DNA from: a virus
Length of the DNA: 33,828 bases
Virus record (IMG/VR): IMGVR_UViG_3300030109_001156
Coordinates: 1 to 33,828 of that record
Reading direction: 5' to 3' (one strand)
The notes below the pieces were generated by a model. It saw only the letters and a list, made by a program, of their open reading frames with translations, was not told the origin of the DNA and did no database searches. Positions 7,464 to 33,828 of the stretch are shown piece by piece. The position numbers were made by a program, and so were the translations under genes. Position 1 is the stretch's first letter. Each line of letters starts with the position of its first letter.

Positions 7464-7937
7464 ATGGCATTTAAATTATCAAAGAGAAGTTTAAGTAAGT
7501 TAGAAGGTGTGCATCCAGAGTTAGTTAATGTTGTTAAGCTAGCCATTACGCTTACCAAAGTAGATTTTGGAGTGACATTTGGCAAGCGTACTAAAGAAGA
7601 ACAAGAAGCTTTAGTTAAAGCTGGCAGATCAAAGACACACAAAAGCTATCATCTTATTCAAACAGATGGGTACTCTCATGCAGTGGACTTGATGGCTTAT
7701 GTTAATGGTCCATGTTGGGAGTTGAATGTTTATGATGATCTTTGTGATGCAATGAAACAAGCGTCAATGCAGTTAGGTAATATCCCAATAAAGTGGGGTG
7801 CTGCTTGGAGTGAAGGTAGTATTACTAGTTATACTGGTACTGCTGAAGAAGCTATGAACTCATACATTGATCTTCGTCGTTCTCAAGCTCGTCGACCTTT
7901 TCTGGATGGTCCCCATTTCGAACTAATGTACTTATAA
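7464..7937 (+). CDS. Endolysin, M15-type peptidoglycan peptidase
   Basis: 157 residues. The order of motifs fits M15 (VanY / T5-endolysin-like) zinc peptidases: FGKRTKEEQEALV (about 39 to 51, cf. the substrate-side F..GxRT..EQ motif), the zinc-binding S.H...G..HAVDL block (His63, Asp75) and the C-terminal DGPHFEL block (Asp148 as probable general base region, His151 as third ligand). The His63 to Asp75 spacing is longer than the usual HxxGxAVD, suggesting a small loop insertion. It would cut stem-peptide bonds in the host wall after holin action. No signal peptide, so holin-dependent release is expected. It is the last gene of the rightward unit, and its final 86 bases overlap the oppositely oriented gene 7852..8184, including the codon for His151. 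Confidence 0.8.
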   Translation: MAFKLSKRSLSKLEGVHPELVNVVKLAITLTKVDFGVTFGKRTKEEQEALVKAGRSKTHKSYHLIQTDGYSHAVDLMAYVNGPCWELNVYDDLCDAMKQASMQLGNIPIKWGAAWSEGSITSYTGTAEEAMNSYIDLRRSQARRPFLDGPHFELMYL

Positions 7938-8184
7938 GTTCTACTGCTAGAGCTGAGTAACCAGCTATATCTTCATAAGAATCTATATGCAATGGATCTT
8001 GTTTTAATCTCATTGCTTTTGTTAGTATCATCATAATACATACATCAAGATAGTTAAACTCTTGACCTTTGTACTCTGACCAAGTCTTAGCTATTGATCT
8101 AAGATTGTCGTTAGGGTGTCCATAACTATGTTGTCTTTTGGTGAGGGTGTCACCTACTTTTCTTAGGAATTGTGATCTGTTCAT
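7852..8184 (-). CDS. DUF6378-type (MazG-like helical) protein
   Basis: 110 residues. The pattern RQHSYGHPNDNLRSIAKTWS..., DVCIMMILTKAMRLKQ...HIDSYEDIAGYSALAVE is that of DUF6378 proteins, small helical phage proteins with the acidic Asp/Glu-x-x-Asp layout seen in MazG-like nucleotide pyrophosphatases. A role in nucleotide clean-up is plausible but unproven. The start follows an AAGGA site. It is the last gene of the leftward unit, sits after a strong terminator (8199..8234) and therefore depends on read-through or an unseen promoter. Its last 28 codons are antisense to the end of the endolysin gene. Confidence 0.65.
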   Translation of the reverse strand: MNRSQFLRKVGDTLTKRQHSYGHPNDNLRSIAKTWSEYKGQEFNYLDVCIMMILTKAMRLKQDPLHIDSYEDIAGYSALAVELISTLVRNGDHPEKVDELENDEDQCMSS

Positions 8185-9967: not shown

Positions 9968-10041
9968 ATAGGGTACAAAAATGATTTTCTCCATAGCCCT
10001 GCCTGTAATAACTAGGGTAACTTTTTGTTACCCTTTTTTTT
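9968..10041 (+). ncRNA. Possible small antisense RNA, about 73 nt
   Basis: Predicted from the promoter-like boxes at 9933..9961 and the strong rightward terminator ending at 10041. The RNA would be antisense to the 3' end of gene 10012..10197 and contains no convincing reading frame. Inferred from signals only. Confidence 0.35.
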
Positions 10042-10926: not shown

Positions 10927-11327
10927 TACTTTTCTCCTAATAATTTTTTGTGATACAACTTATCAAGCTGATTAAGTATTGACTCTCTGTTTCTTTTTCT
11001 GTGGTTAACTATCTTTGCAAAGTCAGACCAAACAGGAAACTCAACTTTGGTATCTACAATTTGTCTCATTGCATACAAAGTTATGTCAGCTGGCACATCT
11101 AAAAGCTGACTTGTTAGTGCCTTGATTCTGATACTTTGGTCAGCAGCTGTCTCACCAAATGGTTTTTTCATGAGTGTAGAAATTGAGGCTAGAGCCTTCT
11201 TAATATCTTCCGAGGGTAATGGTACTAAAGACTCTTGAATGACCTCTCTACAAGCTTTAAAATGGCTCTCATCAGCTATCTTCATAGAGAGGTGGGGTGA
11301 TCTATACTCTGTGCCTAGCTTAATCAT
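10926..11327 (-). CDS. Putative replication accessory / helicase-loader-like protein
   Basis: 133 residues from the ATG at 11327, which overlaps the stop of the upstream initiator-like gene by 8 bases (GATGATTAA) and has GAAGGTG just before it. The frame stays open to an ATG at 11540, but the extra 71 residues (Ser/Leu/Thr-rich, low complexity) would overlap the upstream gene completely in another frame, so I treat them as chance. The body is helical: SEDIKKALASISTLMKKPFG, then the conserved-looking LLDVPADITLYAMRQIVDT..EFPVWSDFAKIVNHRKR. This Pro-Ala-Asp-Ile .. Phe-Pro-x-Trp pattern occurs in small phage proteins beside replication initiators. By position it could be a loader partner, like lambda P; not proven. 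Confidence 0.55.
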   Translation of the reverse strand: MIKLGTEYRSPHLSMKIADESHFKACREVIQESLVPLPSEDIKKALASISTLMKKPFGETAADQSIRIKALTSQLLDVPADITLYAMRQIVDTKVEFPVWSDFAKIVNHRKRNRESILNQLDKLYHKKLLGEK

Positions 11328-11967
11328 CACCTTCGAGTCCGTCAACGACTGTAGAGAAGTAGTCAGACTTATGTCCACCGATATTGGATTTTTTATTCCC
11401 TTTAAAACTTTCAAAGCTAATGACTTTTTCTCTCCACTGAGCGACGTTACGACACCAGTTGTAATAAGCTCTCTCTGGTTTTGCAAAGACTGAACCCTTT
11501 GCGACATGATAGTTGACAAACTTGTCGGTTTCTTCTCCATGATTTATTTCTCCAAATGATTTGTTAATCTTATCTAGTATCTCTTTGTCTGGTAACCAAT
11601 CTAGTTTAATTAATCCTCTTTTATTCATAGATACTTTACTGTTTACTTGGTTACTTGATAGGTTAGTGGTCGGCTGGCGACCAACGTAGGGCGTGTCCCG
11701 ACTAAGGTGTGGTAGTACTGTGTAGATATTTGAAGCATAAGAATTGCCAGATGATCTATCAATATATTCGTTATCTTCTAACCAACGGAGTCTATCTTTG
11801 AGTGTTGTATTACGAATACGACTACGTTTGGTTAGCGTCGACAAGCTTGGGAAACAAGTTCTTGTTTTGTCATCAGCATAATCAGCAAGCACTAACAGTA
11901 ACCATTTGGATAGAGGATCATCAATATCCTCTATCTTCATTACCTCTGCCATAAGTATAAAAGACAT
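11320..11967 (-). CDS. O-like replication initiation protein with winged helix domain
   Basis: 215 residues; an AAGGAGAAC site precedes the ATG. The N-terminal domain (about 15 to 75) is a HTH_36-type winged helix: DPLSKWLLLVLADYADDKT, then CFPSLSTLTKRSRI and NTTLKDRLRWLEDNEYIDR. A linker (about 85 to 120) is followed by a C-terminal domain with LPDKEILDKINKSFG, ETDKFVNYHVAKGS and YYNWCRNVAQW, the F..Y...KG....W..W pattern shared by phage replication proteins and DnaT-like domains. This suggests origin recognition and helicase recruitment. No primase or helicase is encoded nearby, so host DnaB and polymerase would be used. Confidence 0.65.
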   Translation of the reverse strand: MSFILMAEVMKIEDIDDPLSKWLLLVLADYADDKTRTCFPSLSTLTKRSRIRNTTLKDRLRWLEDNEYIDRSSGNSYASNIYTVLPHLSRDTPYVGRQPTTNLSSNQVNSKVSMNKRGLIKLDWLPDKEILDKINKSFGEINHGEETDKFVNYHVAKGSVFAKPERAYYNWCRNVAQWREKVISFESFKGNKKSNIGGHKSDYFSTVVDGLEGDD

Positions 11968-13766: not shown

Positions 13767-13856
13767 CTATTGTGCAAGAAATACAACTAGTATTATGTAT
13801 ATCATGGTAAACAACCATAATGATGTAAACATACCTAGTAAAAATATACGTATCAT
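13767..13856 (-). CDS. 29-residue membrane peptide in the early operon
   Basis: A near-perfect ribosome site (AAGGAGGT, 13868 to 13861) stands 4 bases before the ATG at 13856. The peptide begins MIRIFLLGMFTSLWLF and continues as an almost unbroken hydrophobic run to its end at Ala-Gln. It is one membrane span. It is too short for usual gene callers but fills the gap between two early genes. A tiny early membrane peptide could act in superinfection exclusion or host take-over; this is inference. Confidence 0.6.
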   Translation of the reverse strand: MIRIFLLGMFTSLWLFTMIYIILVVFLAQ

Positions 13857-13876
13857 ATTAACCTCCTTGAGTTAGT

Positions 13877-13926
13877 AGAGAGGCTAGACTAGCTAACCTC
13901 TCTTGATAACTGGACCTAAAGTCCAG
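13877..13926 (-). promoter_or_regulatory. Two tandem hairpins between early genes
   Basis: CTGGAC (13910..13915) pairs with GTCCAG (13921..13926), spanning the stop codon of the gene 13916..14350. Next on the leftward transcript, AGAGAGGTTAG and CTAGCCTCTCT (13877..13903) form an 11-bp stem with one U-G pair and a 5-base loop. No T run follows, so these look like RNA processing or stability elements and not terminators. They separate the first early gene from the membrane peptide's ribosome site. Confidence 0.5.
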
Positions 13927-14350
13927 CTATCCTACGAGCATCAGTGCTGATGGCTTGGCTGTTAGTTACCATCTTAGATTTAGTCATGTGACTATACTCT
14001 TTACCAGTGTGATCTTTGAACACTTGCTTACACGCTGTCAATCGTTCTTCAAGTGCCTCAAGTTCTGGTTCCATTCGTTGATAGAGTGCAACCTTTTTCT
14101 CAAGGTTGACGTCGACAACTTCTGAACCTTCAGCTGGTATAAGTTCCTTGATCTCAGCTCTTAACTCGTCCATTATTTTAACTTTATAGTTATGTGAATT
14201 TTGTGCAGTGTAGCACATATCACGGTAAACAGATTCGATAAAAGCCTCATTAAGCTCTGGTTTAGTTTGTCTAGGATGTTTAGCGAGAGCCTCTACAAGT
14301 TGTACAAGGGTTGCGTTATCAAGTGTTACTTTTTTAGTAGTTGTACTCAT
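13916..14350 (-). CDS. First gene of the early operon, unrecognised (144 aa); also the intact arm of the inverted repeat
   Basis: Start at the ATG at 14350, with GGAGGT 5 bases upstream; an earlier ATG at 14362 lacks a site. The protein is charged and helical: KKVTLDNATLVQLVEALAKH, ELNEAFIESVYRDMCYTAQN, a long probable coiled coil (VNLEKKVALYQRMEPELEAL, EERLTACKQVFKDHTG) and a basic end. I do not recognise the family. It is promoter-proximal, so it should be among the first phage proteins made. The whole gene and its leader are repeated in inverted, frameshifted form at 14462..14919, so this gene has been duplicated in place. A DNA- or RNA-binding early regulator is one guess; nothing proves it. 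Confidence 0.7.
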   Translation of the reverse strand: MSTTTKKVTLDNATLVQLVEALAKHPRQTKPELNEAFIESVYRDMCYTAQNSHNYKVKIMDELRAEIKELIPAEGSEVVDVNLEKKVALYQRMEPELEALEERLTACKQVFKDHTGKEYSHMTKSKMVTNSQAISTDARRIAGL

Positions 14351-14433
14351 TTTTACCTCCATGAGTTAGTTGATTAATGAGAGCACTTGGACACTCTACG
14401 AGGGAACGAAGTGACTTTACTGATTCGCAAGGC
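13961..14433 (-). repeat. Left arm of a 0.5 kb imperfect inverted repeat
   Basis: Read leftward from 14433 this arm matches the rightward sequence from 14462. Paired blocks in order outward include CGCAAGGC/GCCTTGCG at 14426..14433, TTAATC at 14377 to 14372, ACTCATGG at 14366 to 14359, AAAAAAGTAACACTTGA at 14335 to 14319, CAACTTGTAGAGG at 14302 to 14290, TTAATGAGGCTT at 14253 to 14242, GAGTTAAGAG at 14167 to 14158, ACCTTGAGA at 14106 to 14098, TAAGCAA at 14030 to 14024 and AACTAAC at 13967 to 13961. Confidence 0.88.
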
Positions 14434-14579
14434 CTTTAGTTGACGAGCTTGCCTCGGCATTGCCTTGCGACTCTGCTCGTGGTTTGTCAAAGTGATGGAG
14501 TTAATCGGCTGACTCATGGGGGTGAAAAGGTGGACAATGGATAAAAAAGTAACACTTGAGAACCAAGCCTTGTGACAAC

Positions 14580-14606
14580 TTGTAGAGGATTGAGCGATTG
14601 TATAGT
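14580..14606 (+). promoter_or_regulatory. Candidate late promoter upstream of terS
   Basis: TATAGT (14601..14606) is a good -10 match; TTGTAG (14580..14585) is a possible -35 but the 15-base spacing is short. It lies inside the right arm and would give a leader of about 280 bases before terS. Another box, TTGACA at 14844..14849, lacks a good -10. Confidence 0.3.
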
Positions 14607-14733
14607 ATGCATTCTAGTATGAACTTAACCAGAGGTTAATGAGGCTTGTTCGAAGCTGTTTTTCGTATATGTGATACGCAGTACAAAAGGCACATGGCTA
14701 TCAAGTAAAATGATGGTTGAGTTAAGAGATGAG

Positions 14734-14825
14734 TCAAGGTCTTGTAGCAGATGAGGGTTCAGCATTGGAGAGGTTGACCTTGAGATGAAGGTGGGACACT
14801 AGCAATGATTGGGACAAGACCTTGA
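14734..14825 (+). promoter_or_regulatory. Perfect 12-bp inverted repeat with competing third arm
   Basis: TCAAGGTCTTGT (14734..14745) is perfectly complementary to ACAAGACCTTGA (14814..14825). A third segment, GACCTTGA (14776..14783), can also pair with TCAAGGTC. The rightward RNA could thus adopt two exclusive folds just ahead of terS. The intact gene copy has only weaker versions of these pairings. Confidence 0.45.
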
Positions 14826-14893
14826 GGTTCACTTGTATGACGGTTGACAGAGGTTAAGCAATGTGCAAGATTACACATAAAGAGGATGGTTAT

Positions 14894-15268
14894 ATGACAG
14901 AGCTAAGTGTTCAACTAACCGACAAACAAGTGAAGCTTGTTGATACGCTTGTAGCCACTGGGTGCAGTATCAAAGAGGCAGCTGGTATTGCTGGCTACGC
15001 TAAAGGAGAGTCAGGTCGTGTGTCTGCTAGTAAGGCATTACGGACACCTAAGGTACAAGCCTATATGCAGACAGCAATTCAGCAGACTCTTGGACTAAAT
15101 GCTACGTATGCGGCGCATAAGTTGTCAGAGCTTAGCACTGGTGCAAGAAGTGAGTACGTTCAGTTGGAAGCTAGCAAAGACATACTTGATCGGGCAGGGT
15201 TTAAAGCTCCTGACAAACATATGCATCTGCATACGGGTGGTATTAAAATCAACATACAGCTGGACTAA
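14894..15268 (+). CDS. terS: Terminase small subunit
   Basis: 124 residues from the ATG at 14894, with AGAGGA 7 bases upstream. An in-frame ATG at 14861 also has AGAGG before it and would add 11 residues; I prefer 14894 because the protein then opens with the usual short tail before the DNA-binding domain. A helix-turn-helix lies at about 12 to 55 (LTDKQVKLVDTLVATGCSIK, EAAGIAGYAKGESGRVSASK, ALRTPKVQAYM), as in small terminases that bind the packaging site, followed by a helical oligomerisation part (ATYAAHKLSELSTGARSEYV, SKDILDRAGFKAPDKH). It heads the late operon. Its first codons coincide with the outer end of the inverted repeat. Confidence 0.75.
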   Translation: MTELSVQLTDKQVKLVDTLVATGCSIKEAAGIAGYAKGESGRVSASKALRTPKVQAYMQTAIQQTLGLNATYAAHKLSELSTGARSEYVQLEASKDILDRAGFKAPDKHMHLHTGGIKINIQLD

Positions 15269-30407: not shown

Positions 30408-33400
30408 TGGATTTAGAAGATATAAAAAAAGGTATTGTTCCAGATAACATAGGTTTAGCAAACGATAATAGACAAACTTACTCTACTGCTGTTCCTAGAA
30501 AAAGTAGTTTTTCAGAAGCATGGTCAGCCATGATGGGTATAAGTTATGGTTCAATGTTATTTGAAGTAGATAATTATTTAAAACATGATGCAAGTTTGCA
30601 TGATGATTTAGATAATGGTAACTTTAATGCATTAACATCAACTGATCCATTTATTGTAGAACAATTAGAAAGTTTAAATAATAGAGATATAAAAAATGAT
30701 TTGATATTTGCTAGAAATAAAGAACATTTTTTAGGAATGATTGAGCAAAAATATCGTAGACTTGAGCAACATAAAACATTAGAAAATACAAGTTGGTCTA
30801 CTTATATACCAGCATTAATAGCTGATCCTATAAATGGTGCTACAATTTTCTTTCCTATATTGCGTAGTAAATCTGTATGGGATGCTATGCGTAAATCAGC
30901 ATTAATGACCACAGCTATTGTCGGACCATTAGAAACTGGTAGAGTATATGCTGATCCTACAGTTTCCCCAATGGAAGGTGTGGCTACAACAACTGCATCT
31001 GTTCTTTTTAGTAGTGCTTTAACTGGTGCTGGTAGAGGTATATCAGATTACTTTACCAACAGAGCAAGAAAAGAAATATATAATCAAGTTACATCTGAAA
31101 TGATAGCTACTGGTACGTTCAAACCAGATGGTATTTATAGAGATAGTAATGGAATGTTGCATGGTAACTTTACAGAAAATGTAAAGATAGCAAGATCAAG
31201 TGGTAAATCTATTTTTGATACATCAGAAGAAGAGCTTACTAAGATATTTAAAAACTTTTCCTATAATAAAATTATTACTAATCAAGCAAAAGTAAATGAA
31301 TATCTAAGAAAAGAGAATAAAAATTTAACAGGAATACTTGGTGTTAATGCAAAAGACGGAAACATATATTTAAACTTTGAAGCTATAAAACGTAGTTACA
31401 AAGATTTTAAAAGTAAAACAAAAAGCAAAGCTGCAATACAACAATATAAAACACAATTAAAACAAGTTTATGATAATAAAGAAATTTCTGAAGCAACTTA
31501 TAGACATCATTTAAATAAAATAAAACATATAGATTTATTTAATAATGTTGATGAATATGCTAAGTTTATTTTATTACACGAATTACATCATACTACAAAT
31601 CCTAGATTAAAATATGAGCGTTTAGGTTTGTATGAAGATCGTATTGATAATCTTGCACTTCATTTTCTTAGAGATGAAAGAAGTATAAGTGAGTATTCTG
31701 TTTTTAGAGATGGTGTTAAAACCAAAATTAATCCAGATGATATTCCAGTATTAGATAATCCAAATAGTTTTGATACTAGTGGTTCTGGTGCTTTCTTAAA
31801 CTCATGGGCTTACAAAGCTATACCTACTCCTTATAAAAATTTTATTATGAACAAAGCTATTAGTGATGATGTAAAAGAATTAATGCACAAATTAGGAAGT
31901 GACATGGGTATGAAGATGCAAAAGAATGCTCTTGGTATTCCTTCTGATTTTAGTGTTCATATAAAATCTAATACAGATCATGGCAAATGGGTAAGAGTAT
32001 ATGATGATATAATGAAAATATACTCTGAAGATACTAATAAGAAAGTAACTGGTGTATTAGATTATAGAATATGGGGTGCTAAAACCTTTGATGATTGGAT
32101 GAAGAACGTAAACAGACGTATGGTTTTTAATGATTTAGATGGTGTTACTGCTGGTGAAAAGAAAGCTATTAAAATGTTTCAAAACTTTTGGAAAGAATGG
32201 GAACAAAGATTAATTGATGTTAATATGATTGGTACTCGTCGTGGTTTGATTAATGAGATAGCTAGATTGGAAATAAGATTAAAAGAACTTGAAGCAACGC
32301 CAGCAATAAAAGGTGATTTAGATTACAATAAATTACAAATAGAAAGATACAAAGGTAAATTAGATGAGCTAAGATCAGATTTAAGTGCTAAAGTTGATAC
32401 TTCTGTGCCTCAAAATGAAATGAGTTTTTATGCTAGGTATTGGAATCATGATATGATTCTAGCTAATAAAGAAAAATTTACACAAATATTAGAAAAATGG
32501 TATGCACAAAATCCATATATATATGAGAAAGGTGTACAAAAATTATTATCAACAAATCCAGCAAGTGTAAGAAAAAGAGCAGATGAAACAGTATCAAAGA
32601 TACTAGGTGAAACAGATGGTAACTTTGAACAATCTTTTGCTGGTTATAGTTCTAAACATACAAGGCATAGAAACTTAAACATACCTAATAAACTTGTTTG
32701 GGAATTTATAGAACAAAATCCTATTAGTGTTATGAAGAACTATACAACAAGAGTTTCTCCAGAATATCATTTTAAAAATGATTTTAATGGTAGGTCATTA
32801 GAAGATGTGCAAGAGTTTATTTACAATAGTGTATCTAAATCTAGTAATGTTAAATCAGCACAAAAAGCAGTTATGCAATTTACACATATGTATGATCGTG
32901 TTGTTGGTAATGTTGTTAAAGACCCAACTAAATTAAATCAAAGAGTCAGACAAGTGCTTAGTGACTTAGCTGGTTTAACTTATTTAGGTTCTGCTGGTTT
33001 TGCAACACTTACTGACTATGCAGCAATAGCTTTGCAAAGGGAAGCTGGTGCTTGGTTAAAGTTATCTTTTTCAATTATGGATGGTCAGAAAATATCTTTA
33101 AATGCCAAAGAAGGTAGATATGCTGGTGAAGCTTTGGATATATTAAAAAATATGGAAGGCTTGAGATTGATAGATGATCTATCAAATAGAACAATAGATC
33201 GTGGATTATATAGTAAAGTTGCTGGTAAAGCCAAACAATTATTTTATTCTACGAACTTATTAGGGCCAGCTACTAATATAGCTAAAAGAATGGAATCTAT
33301 TTTAAGAGCGCATCAAATTGTTGAAGATTCAATAGGAATATATAATGGAAGAGCAACTCAGCAAACAAAAGAAATGATGGCTAAGATGGGGTTTGGAGCT

Positions 33401-33828
33401 AAAGAAATAAAAGAGATTGCAACAAAAGCTCCAGTAGAAAGAGCAACTGATAAAGGATTATACTTAGCTAATTCTGATGGATGGGTTAAAGCTGGTGTTT
33501 CACGTGAAACATTAGATAAGTTTCGTTATTCTATGAATGCTGGTATATTTAACACAGTTATTATGGCATCTCCAGCAGATAAACCTATTGCAATGGATGG
33601 TGTGTTTTATGTTCCTTGGAAAGTTGCTCAGTATATACCTGGCATGAAACAAGATAAAGCAGTAAGAGGATATTCAAGAATTGAAAATGGTTTATATTCT
33701 TTGCCATTTGCTTTTATGTCTTATTCTTTTGGTGCTGCAAATAAAATTACTGCAAGTCTAGCTCAAAATTCATTAAAGAATAAAGCTATGGGTATGACTA
33801 TGGCTATGGGTTTAGCTTATATGGGCTT
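30407..33828 (+). CDS. gp16-like internal virion protein with HELHH motif, N-terminal part (3' end cut)
   Basis: The frame runs off the window after about 1140 residues; it continues, in another strain's version, at 3..1067. A helical N-terminus with ENTSWSTYIPALIADPINGA and further hydrophobic stretches (about 135 to 220) is followed by a zinc-protease-like region: KFILLHELHHTTNPRLKYER with His391-Glu392 and His395, and LGLYEDRIDNLAL with Glu410 as possible third ligand. T7 gp16 instead carries a lytic transglycosylase near its N-terminus. Later parts contain a probable coiled coil (INEIARLEIRLKELEATPAI, about 617 to 636) and AQNPYIYEKGVQKLLSTNPA. After ejection this protein may open the wall or form the conduit; peptidase activity is inferred from the motif only. 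Confidence 0.75.
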   Translation, partial: MDLEDIKKGIVPDNIGLANDNRQTYSTAVPRKSSFSEAWSAMMGISYGSMLFEVDNYLKHDASLHDDLDNGNFNALTSTDPFIVEQLESLNNRDIKNDLIFARNKEHFLGMIEQKYRRLEQHKTLENTSWSTYIPALIADPINGATIFFPILRSKSVWDAMRKSALMTTAIVGPLETGRVYADPTVSPMEGVATTTASVLFSSALTGAGRGISDYFTNRARKEIYNQVTSEMIATGTFKPDGIYRDSNGMLHGNFTENVKIARSSGKSIFDTSEEELTKIFKNFSYNKIITNQAKVNEYLRKENKNLTGILGVNAKDGNIYLNFEAIKRSYKDFKSKTKSKAAIQQYKTQLKQVYDNKEISEATYRHHLNKIKHIDLFNNVDEYAKFILLHELHHTTNPRLKYERLGLYEDRIDNLALHFLRDERSISEYSVFRDGVKTKINPDDIPVLDNPNSFDTSGSGAFLNSWAYKAIPTPYKNFIMNKAISDDVKELMHKLGSDMGMKMQKNALGIPSDFSVHIKSNTDHGKWVRVYDDIMKIYSEDTNKKVTGVLDYRIWGAKTFDDWMKNVNRRMVFNDLDGVTAGEKKAIKMFQNFWKEWEQRLIDVNMIGTRRGLINEIARLEIRLKELEATPAIKGDLDYNKLQIERYKGKLDELRSDLSAKVDTSVPQNEMSFYARYWNHDMILANKEKFTQILEKWYAQNPYIYEKGVQKLLSTNPASVRKRADETVSKILGETDGNFEQSFAGYSSKHTRHRNLNIPNKLVWEFIEQNPISVMKNYTTRVSPEYHFKNDFNGRSLEDVQEFIYNSVSKSSNVKSAQKAVMQFTHMYDRVVGNVVKDPTKLNQRVRQVLSDLAGLTYLGSAGFATLTDYAAIALQREAGAWLKLSFSIMDGQKISLNAKEGRYAGEALDILKNMEGLRLIDDLSNRTIDRGLYSKVAGKAKQLFYSTNLLGPATNIAKRMESILRAHQIVEDSIGIYNGRATQQTKEMMAKMGFGAKEIKEIATKAPVERATDKGLYLANSDGWVKAGVSRETLDKFRYSMNAGIFNTVIMASPADKPIAMDGVFYVPWKVAQYIPGMKQDKAVRGYSRIENGLYSLPFAFMSYSFGAANKITASLAQNSLKNKAMGMTMAMGLAYMG
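33159..33828. repeat. Right copy of the diverged terminal repeat (partner 1..670)
   Basis: Aligns gap-free with the first 670 bases; see the left copy. The shared block starts exactly at base 1 of the window, with 76 identical bases before the first mismatch, as expected when an assembler stops at a branch shared by two strains. Confidence 0.9.

Follow-up and report, generated by a model that had tools for sequence, protein, structure and literature searches.

The boundary between the early and the late genes of the window, by which we mean the whole 33,828-bp IMG/VR virus record IMGVR_UViG_3300030109_001156, carries a palindrome, which is best interpreted as a selected, very long imperfect hairpin in a lineage of small marine podovirus-like phages. 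The inverted repeat is conserved, its arms covary and its non-coding arm is under constraint. On the + strand, the left arm is the antisense of the first early gene; the right arm is a non-coding inverted copy of this gene and its leader, which appears to be kept complementary by compensatory changes. As a plausible but tentative functional interpretation, the comparisons point to an RNA-level hairpin at the early/late boundary that would involve the antisense of the first early gene. As a rule, palindromes of great length are unstable and are eliminated, particularly where they cover coding sequence. One of about 1 kb that persists at a single regulatory boundary across a group of marine phages, with a gene tied to its own mirror image, would point either to a new regulatory RNA/DNA device or to a mutational upkeep of hairpins that is unusually strong.

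When 13900..14449 was aligned locally with 14440..14950 in reverse complement, a significant collinear match resulted, in which 13955..14402 and the reverse complement of 14475..14925 were joined in a single gapped alignment (72% identity, score 305). The maximal control scores were 32 among 200 shuffles of one arm and 29 elsewhere in the window. When the 1,051-bp stretch was compared with its own record by blastn, the match had an E-value of 2.6e-119 (72%), and a more permissive blastn self-match widened the palindrome to 13863..15008 (70.4%, E 1e-150). This wider form enters the first codons of terS, and its outer left extension ends ~53 bp beyond the point where the first early gene stops. 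With a score of 305 against a shuffle maximum of 32, the inverted duplication of the first early gene and its leader, which the initial annotation had placed at the early/late divergence, was borne out. The same holds for its finer details: the 17-base block is exact (14335-14319 with 14543-14559, 17/17 bases), the 21-base block has the one mismatch described (14262-14242 with 14627-14647, 20/21), and the innermost pair CGCAAGGC/GCCTTGCG (14426-14433/14462-14469) leaves a 28-base centre. The right copy stops after 12 codons as described, its ATG at 14537 being followed by MDKKVTLENQAL and then TGA. No conserved ORF of at least 50 aa was present in the right arm, and the reading frame of the copy is lost. 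The coordinates of the features are given in the table.

Features of the palindrome and its surroundings in the window
Feature	Position	Strand	Description and evidence
First early gene, 144 aa	13916..14350	-	Real coding gene; dN/dS about 0.2 vs L008/L009
Left arm	13955..14402	-	Most of the first early (leftward) gene, ribosome site and leader; self-alignment, pairing support
Outer left-arm extension, weaker	13863..13954	.	Pairs with 14926..15008; blastn self-match
Apex between the arms	14403..14474	.	In the window, short hairpin 14426-14433 with 14462-14469
Right arm	14475..14925	+	Non-coding inverted copy of gene and leader; G-enriched on the + strand
Vestigial start of the right-arm copy of the gene	14537..14575	+	12 codons, then TGA
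Conserved TTGACA, likely -35 of the terS/late promoter	14844..14849	+	Alignment; weak -10 CAAGAT 16 bp on
terS (Terminase_2)	14861..15268	+	Pfam PF03592; alignment

The product of the first early gene is predicted to fold as a helical hairpin (AlphaFold mean pLDDT 83.7) with helices at 15-29, 35-73, 77-115 and 131-141. Searches with the protein of the window gave no Pfam, PHROG or NCBIfam match, and a fold search against the PDB had no hit with an E-value of 0.001 or better; two marginal hits were both to phage proteins without assigned function. Between this gene and the next lies an unlisted 29-aa hydrophobic ORF (MIRIFLLGMFTSLWLFTMIYIILVVFLAQ, 13767-13856, - strand) with a GGAGG ribosome site. 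The genes at the ends of the late and early operons (7464-7937 on the + strand and 7852-8184 on the - strand) converge with an overlap of ~85 bp, and the early operon is closed by a terminator-like hairpin with a T run (8236-8205, - strand). At its two ends (1-670 and 33159-33828), the window has direct repeats with 84% identity and few gaps; they are probably either variants from different strains that were combined in one assembly of a circular genome, or end repeats that have diverged.

The same arrangement is present in related phages. The independent contigs L001, L002, L007, L008 and L009 bear the palindrome of the window, and the isolate Pelagibacter phage EXVC031P Hodr (OQ414635), the terL of which is 65% identical to that of the window, carries a palindrome at the same place with arms unlike the window's. 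Among 53 relatives found by TerS alone, 44 had a long palindrome (score of at least 60) within 1 kb before terS. This score was reached by none of the 146 control tiles taken from the same loci and the window (maximum 49). Five further loci from another collection, also found by TerS alone, had palindromes scoring 70-175 before terS. In the common form, the arms measure ~150-250 bp and cover the leader, the ribosome site and the first codons of the first leftward gene, and the right arm often stops ~80-100 bp short of terS. Whole-gene arms are found in the window cluster, in L075 with L096 and L097, in L084 and in L102/L103, and they extend ~35-56 bp beyond the stop codon of the gene (window cluster, L075, L084, L102, L103). 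The wider terminase kin HTVC010P and MEP301 have no comparable palindrome at that place. At the left end of its record (1-98), BcepC6B (L088) has a 98-bp palindrome (80%) just upstream of its repressor and terS genes. The contigs L099-L103 have been binned into MAGs with the labels Euryarchaeota, Gammaproteobacteria and Rhodobiaceae; these labels probably reflect binning contamination, so that the host cannot be read from them.

A fold-back assembly chimera is excluded because 28% of the sites differ between the arms and because the same junction is found in L001, L002, L007-L009 and Hodr. More generally, the idea of a plain decayed duplicate or an assembly artefact, with which the untranslatable right copy would agree, has a next to negligible probability, since an isolate as well as dozens of independent contigs carry the palindrome, which is constrained and covarying.

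When the window was compared with L008/L009, the right arm was 74-75% identical and the left arm 73-75%; the corresponding value for the 4-fold sites of terL was ~60%. The right arm, which is non-coding, thus equals the coding left arm in conservation. Its GC content is 42%, and the 4-fold sites of the late genes are 93% AT without G skew. In the consensus hairpin of alignment A1, 93.1% of the cells were paired, a value that is inflated because the structures were derived from the same alignments; the numbers of double changes still exceeded both controls throughout. Compensatory double changes were found at 73 pairs of A1 (41.1 in the shuffles, 9-11 after register slides), and 130 cells were doubly changed (50 in the shuffles, 11-16 in the slides). 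The apex alignment A2 had 11 double-change pairs compared with 0-1 after sliding, seven further groups (two of them overlapping) had 19-32 compared with 2-13, and the L075 lineage had 59 compared with 10-13. Simple or neutral decay of the right copy is ruled out by its conservation, its GC content and these compensatory changes. The right arm is constrained and co-evolves with the left arm, and the term "decayed", by which the initial annotation had characterized it, is wrong. Sorted by codon position of the gene, 31 double changes were located at third positions compared with 12 and 13 at the two others. Since they fall mostly at third positions, the first early gene drifts silently and the opposite arm follows.

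The arms of one genome are 70-74% alike in the window, L075, L084 and Hodr, whereas the right arms of these four compared with each other have no detectable similarity; their first early genes are homologous with 26-47% amino-acid identity. Likeness within genomes without likeness between them implies either that pairing is selected or that the arms are repeatedly homogenized or re-made. A four-way test of within- against cross-arm identity was equivocal inside the window cluster and clear between distant lineages. Covariation can also arise by copying of one arm onto the other, and mutational upkeep by template switching is the main rival of selected pairing. According to this explanation, which we consider rather unlikely, a fold-back template switch beside a hairpin-prone site created the duplication, and later template switching during replication or gene conversion recopies the arms, so that they pair without any function. 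Hairpin stems have been documented to arise and persist by template switching (PMC8794818), and the lineage-dependent arm identity (about 70-90% of aligned columns), the scattered lineages with whole-gene palindromes and the tracts of consecutive compensated columns that we found are consistent with such recopying. However, letters specific for the right arm and bulges, which copying would erase, are retained in the window, L006 and L009, and the apex, which lies outside the duplicated gene, covaries too. Moreover, the palindrome occupies a single site in nearly all lineages and is absent from the control tiles.

The apex itself is a conserved branched domain of ~190 nt with CGACCWCTTGGGAG repeats in L002, L006, L008, L009 and L093. 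This domain (2600-2790 in L009) is nearly invariant among genomes with strongly different arms. The window and L001 are without it, and in the window 14403-14474 takes its place. The CGACCWCTTGGGAG repeats may be protein-binding RNA or DNA repeats.

The two strands of the palindrome differ in their folding. For the window, the + (terS-sense) strand folds at -500 kcal/mol compared with -376 kcal/mol for the - strand (z -23 vs -18), and for alignment A1 the corresponding values are -236 and -146. The + strand also folds better in L075 and in 6 of 7 further groups. Over 24 lineages, the mismatches between the arms gave a G.U:A.C ratio of 313:105 on the + strand; permutation predicts 285:123, so that composition (G+T) accounts for a good part of the excess. 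Strict selection for G.U pairs was rejected, as part of the signal is composition. In the mismatched columns, G is enriched to a degree that exceeds the neutral skew of the 4-fold sites, and recopying of the arms by template switching leaves this one-strand G enrichment unexplained. No strand preference was seen in Hodr, the L043 group and L100-L103. Because of this and of the composition effect, we confine the strand claim to the lineage of the window, for which the terS-sense strand is likely to be the working strand. These data support, without proving it, that the element works as a single strand of terS sense, most likely in the form of RNA.

If RNA of the + strand is the working molecule, a rightward transcript starting left of the left arm is needed. 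However, no consistent or convincing candidate for a rightward promoter was found there. Early-promoter-like sites near the apex were seen in L006, L009 and Hodr only; L075, L084, L102 and L103 had none, and no matched rightward copy was found. The matched divergent promoters suggested by the initial annotation were not found in the apex. In most relatives, the late promoter (TTGACA, a spacing of 17-18 bp, a variable -10 and then G7 runs) is located between the right arm and terS and hence outside the palindrome; in the window, TTGACA lies inside the right arm. There, the motif at 14844 is the mirror image of early-gene codons and not of an early promoter, and the proposal that the late operon gained its promoter by duplication of the early one is unsupported. 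Because most relatives have the hairpin upstream of their recognizable late promoter, a role as leader of the late mRNA was rejected. The true start of terS is probably the ATG at 14894 (MTELSVQLT...), which follows AAAGAGGATGG, rather than 14861, and this start would leave space for a promoter in front (14861-14896). In L015-L085, a conserved TTGACA block lies ~25-70 bp before terS, followed by GGGGGGG-AACACAA-GGGGGGG or close variants before the start; this twin-G-run promoter/leader block was not found in the window cluster or in Hodr. A second terminator-like hairpin with a T run (10014-10034, + strand) points rightward within the early region, to which it is antisense, and would be expected to stop rightward read-through. 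The RNA interpretation is weakened by this terminator-like site, by the failure to find a consistent rightward promoter and by the position of the hairpin, which in most relatives is upstream of the late promoter. Pairing in trans of divergent RNAs, as had been suggested earlier, finds no support either: RNAs read outward from either arm are alike and not complementary, so that they cannot pair together, and pairing requires one strand with both arms.

In another explanation, the right arm is an inverted, untranslated copy of the transcription unit of the first early gene, and its RNA acts as a decoy that mimics the early mRNA and titrates its binder, complementarity being a by-product of kept identity. 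In the lineages inspected, the right arm does look like the leader, the ribosome site and the first codons, minus the start codon, and the whole-gene forms reach past the stop codon. The apex, however, is without a rightward promoter, a binding site would not require 440 bp, and better folding of one strand is not predicted by such a mechanism, which makes it very improbable.

The failed promoter search fits a hairpin of single-stranded DNA on the + strand, which needs no promoter and might serve replication (priming on the lagging-strand template, comparable to single-strand origins) or packaging and end formation beside terS. The phage encodes lambda O-like initiator, ERF, YqaJ, RusA and SSB-like proteins, and with such a gene set replication- or recombination-linked roles of the hairpin are possible. 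If the origin is located at the lambda O-like initiator gene (11320-11967), the + strand would be the lagging template for a rightward fork through the palindrome. Packaging sites are often found next to terS. The ends of the contigs differ between relatives. On the other hand, the position of the origin is deduced, the contigs as assembled end elsewhere than at the palindrome, and complementarity over 440 bp or a whole gene is far beyond the need of any known priming or pac/cos site. We regard a DNA hairpin of this kind as distinctly unlikely.

Returning to the RNA-level hairpin, we envisage that a rightward transcript spanning both arms would fold into a stem of roughly 440 bp, in which the antisense of the first early gene would be locked against its own mimic. 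Such a hairpin might be a double-strand target (RNase III type) or a leader, and at the onset of late transcription it could help to switch off the early gene or control the expression of terS. It is conceivable, if somewhat unlikely, that it represents regulatory RNAs of a new class in phages: giant transcripts that fold on themselves, in which the antisense of an early gene is joined to a non-coding mimic of the mRNA of that gene and which act at the early-to-late switch. If this is true, complementarity over hundreds of bases is kept by co-evolution in dozens of phage lineages. Since Hodr is an isolated member with a cultured host (SAR11 HTCC1062), both a regulatory RNA/DNA device and mutational upkeep can be tested experimentally.

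As the initial annotation had stated, the palindrome is not a standard annotated element: no Rfam covariance model matched the window or 7 relatives at the gathering score, and a permissive scan gave two chance-level matches. GOLLD and ROOL are large structured phage RNAs that were discovered by metagenome comparison; they are multi-branched, often located near tRNAs and have Rfam models. The phage element resembles them as a large structured non-coding element of phages found by metagenome comparison, but it is a palindrome without an Rfam match. Single-strand origins of rolling-circle plasmids are roughly 100-300 nt long and have conserved loop boxes. Like these, the phage element is a long, imperfect and non-coding hairpin, which may be strand-specific, but no conserved loop boxes were recognized in it. 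A literature search of incomplete coverage found nothing on the palindromic element or on Hodr. The coding palindromes of nematomorph mitochondria are perfect repeats of up to 284 bp with both arms protein-coding (PMC6649704). They share with the phage palindrome that long inverted repeats over coding sequence are kept under selection, but the phage arms are imperfect (70-80%) and longer, and the left arm alone is an open gene. In template-switch RNA hairpins, reverse-complement copies create stems, which keep pairing by multi-base compensatory changes; these are short helices of ordinary RNA genes (PMC8794818), whereas the phage stems comprise hundreds of bases at a regulatory boundary. The cabRNA of staphylococcal phages, which triggers CBASS, lies inside the terS-terL coding sequence and is about 400 nt long or shorter (PMC10686824). 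It is likewise a structured hairpin of the terminase region without sequence homology between the versions of different phages, but the element described here is located upstream of terS, is palindromic and is known from sequence alone. Pairing of a gene with its own maintained non-coding mirror copy sets the phage palindrome apart from all of these systems.
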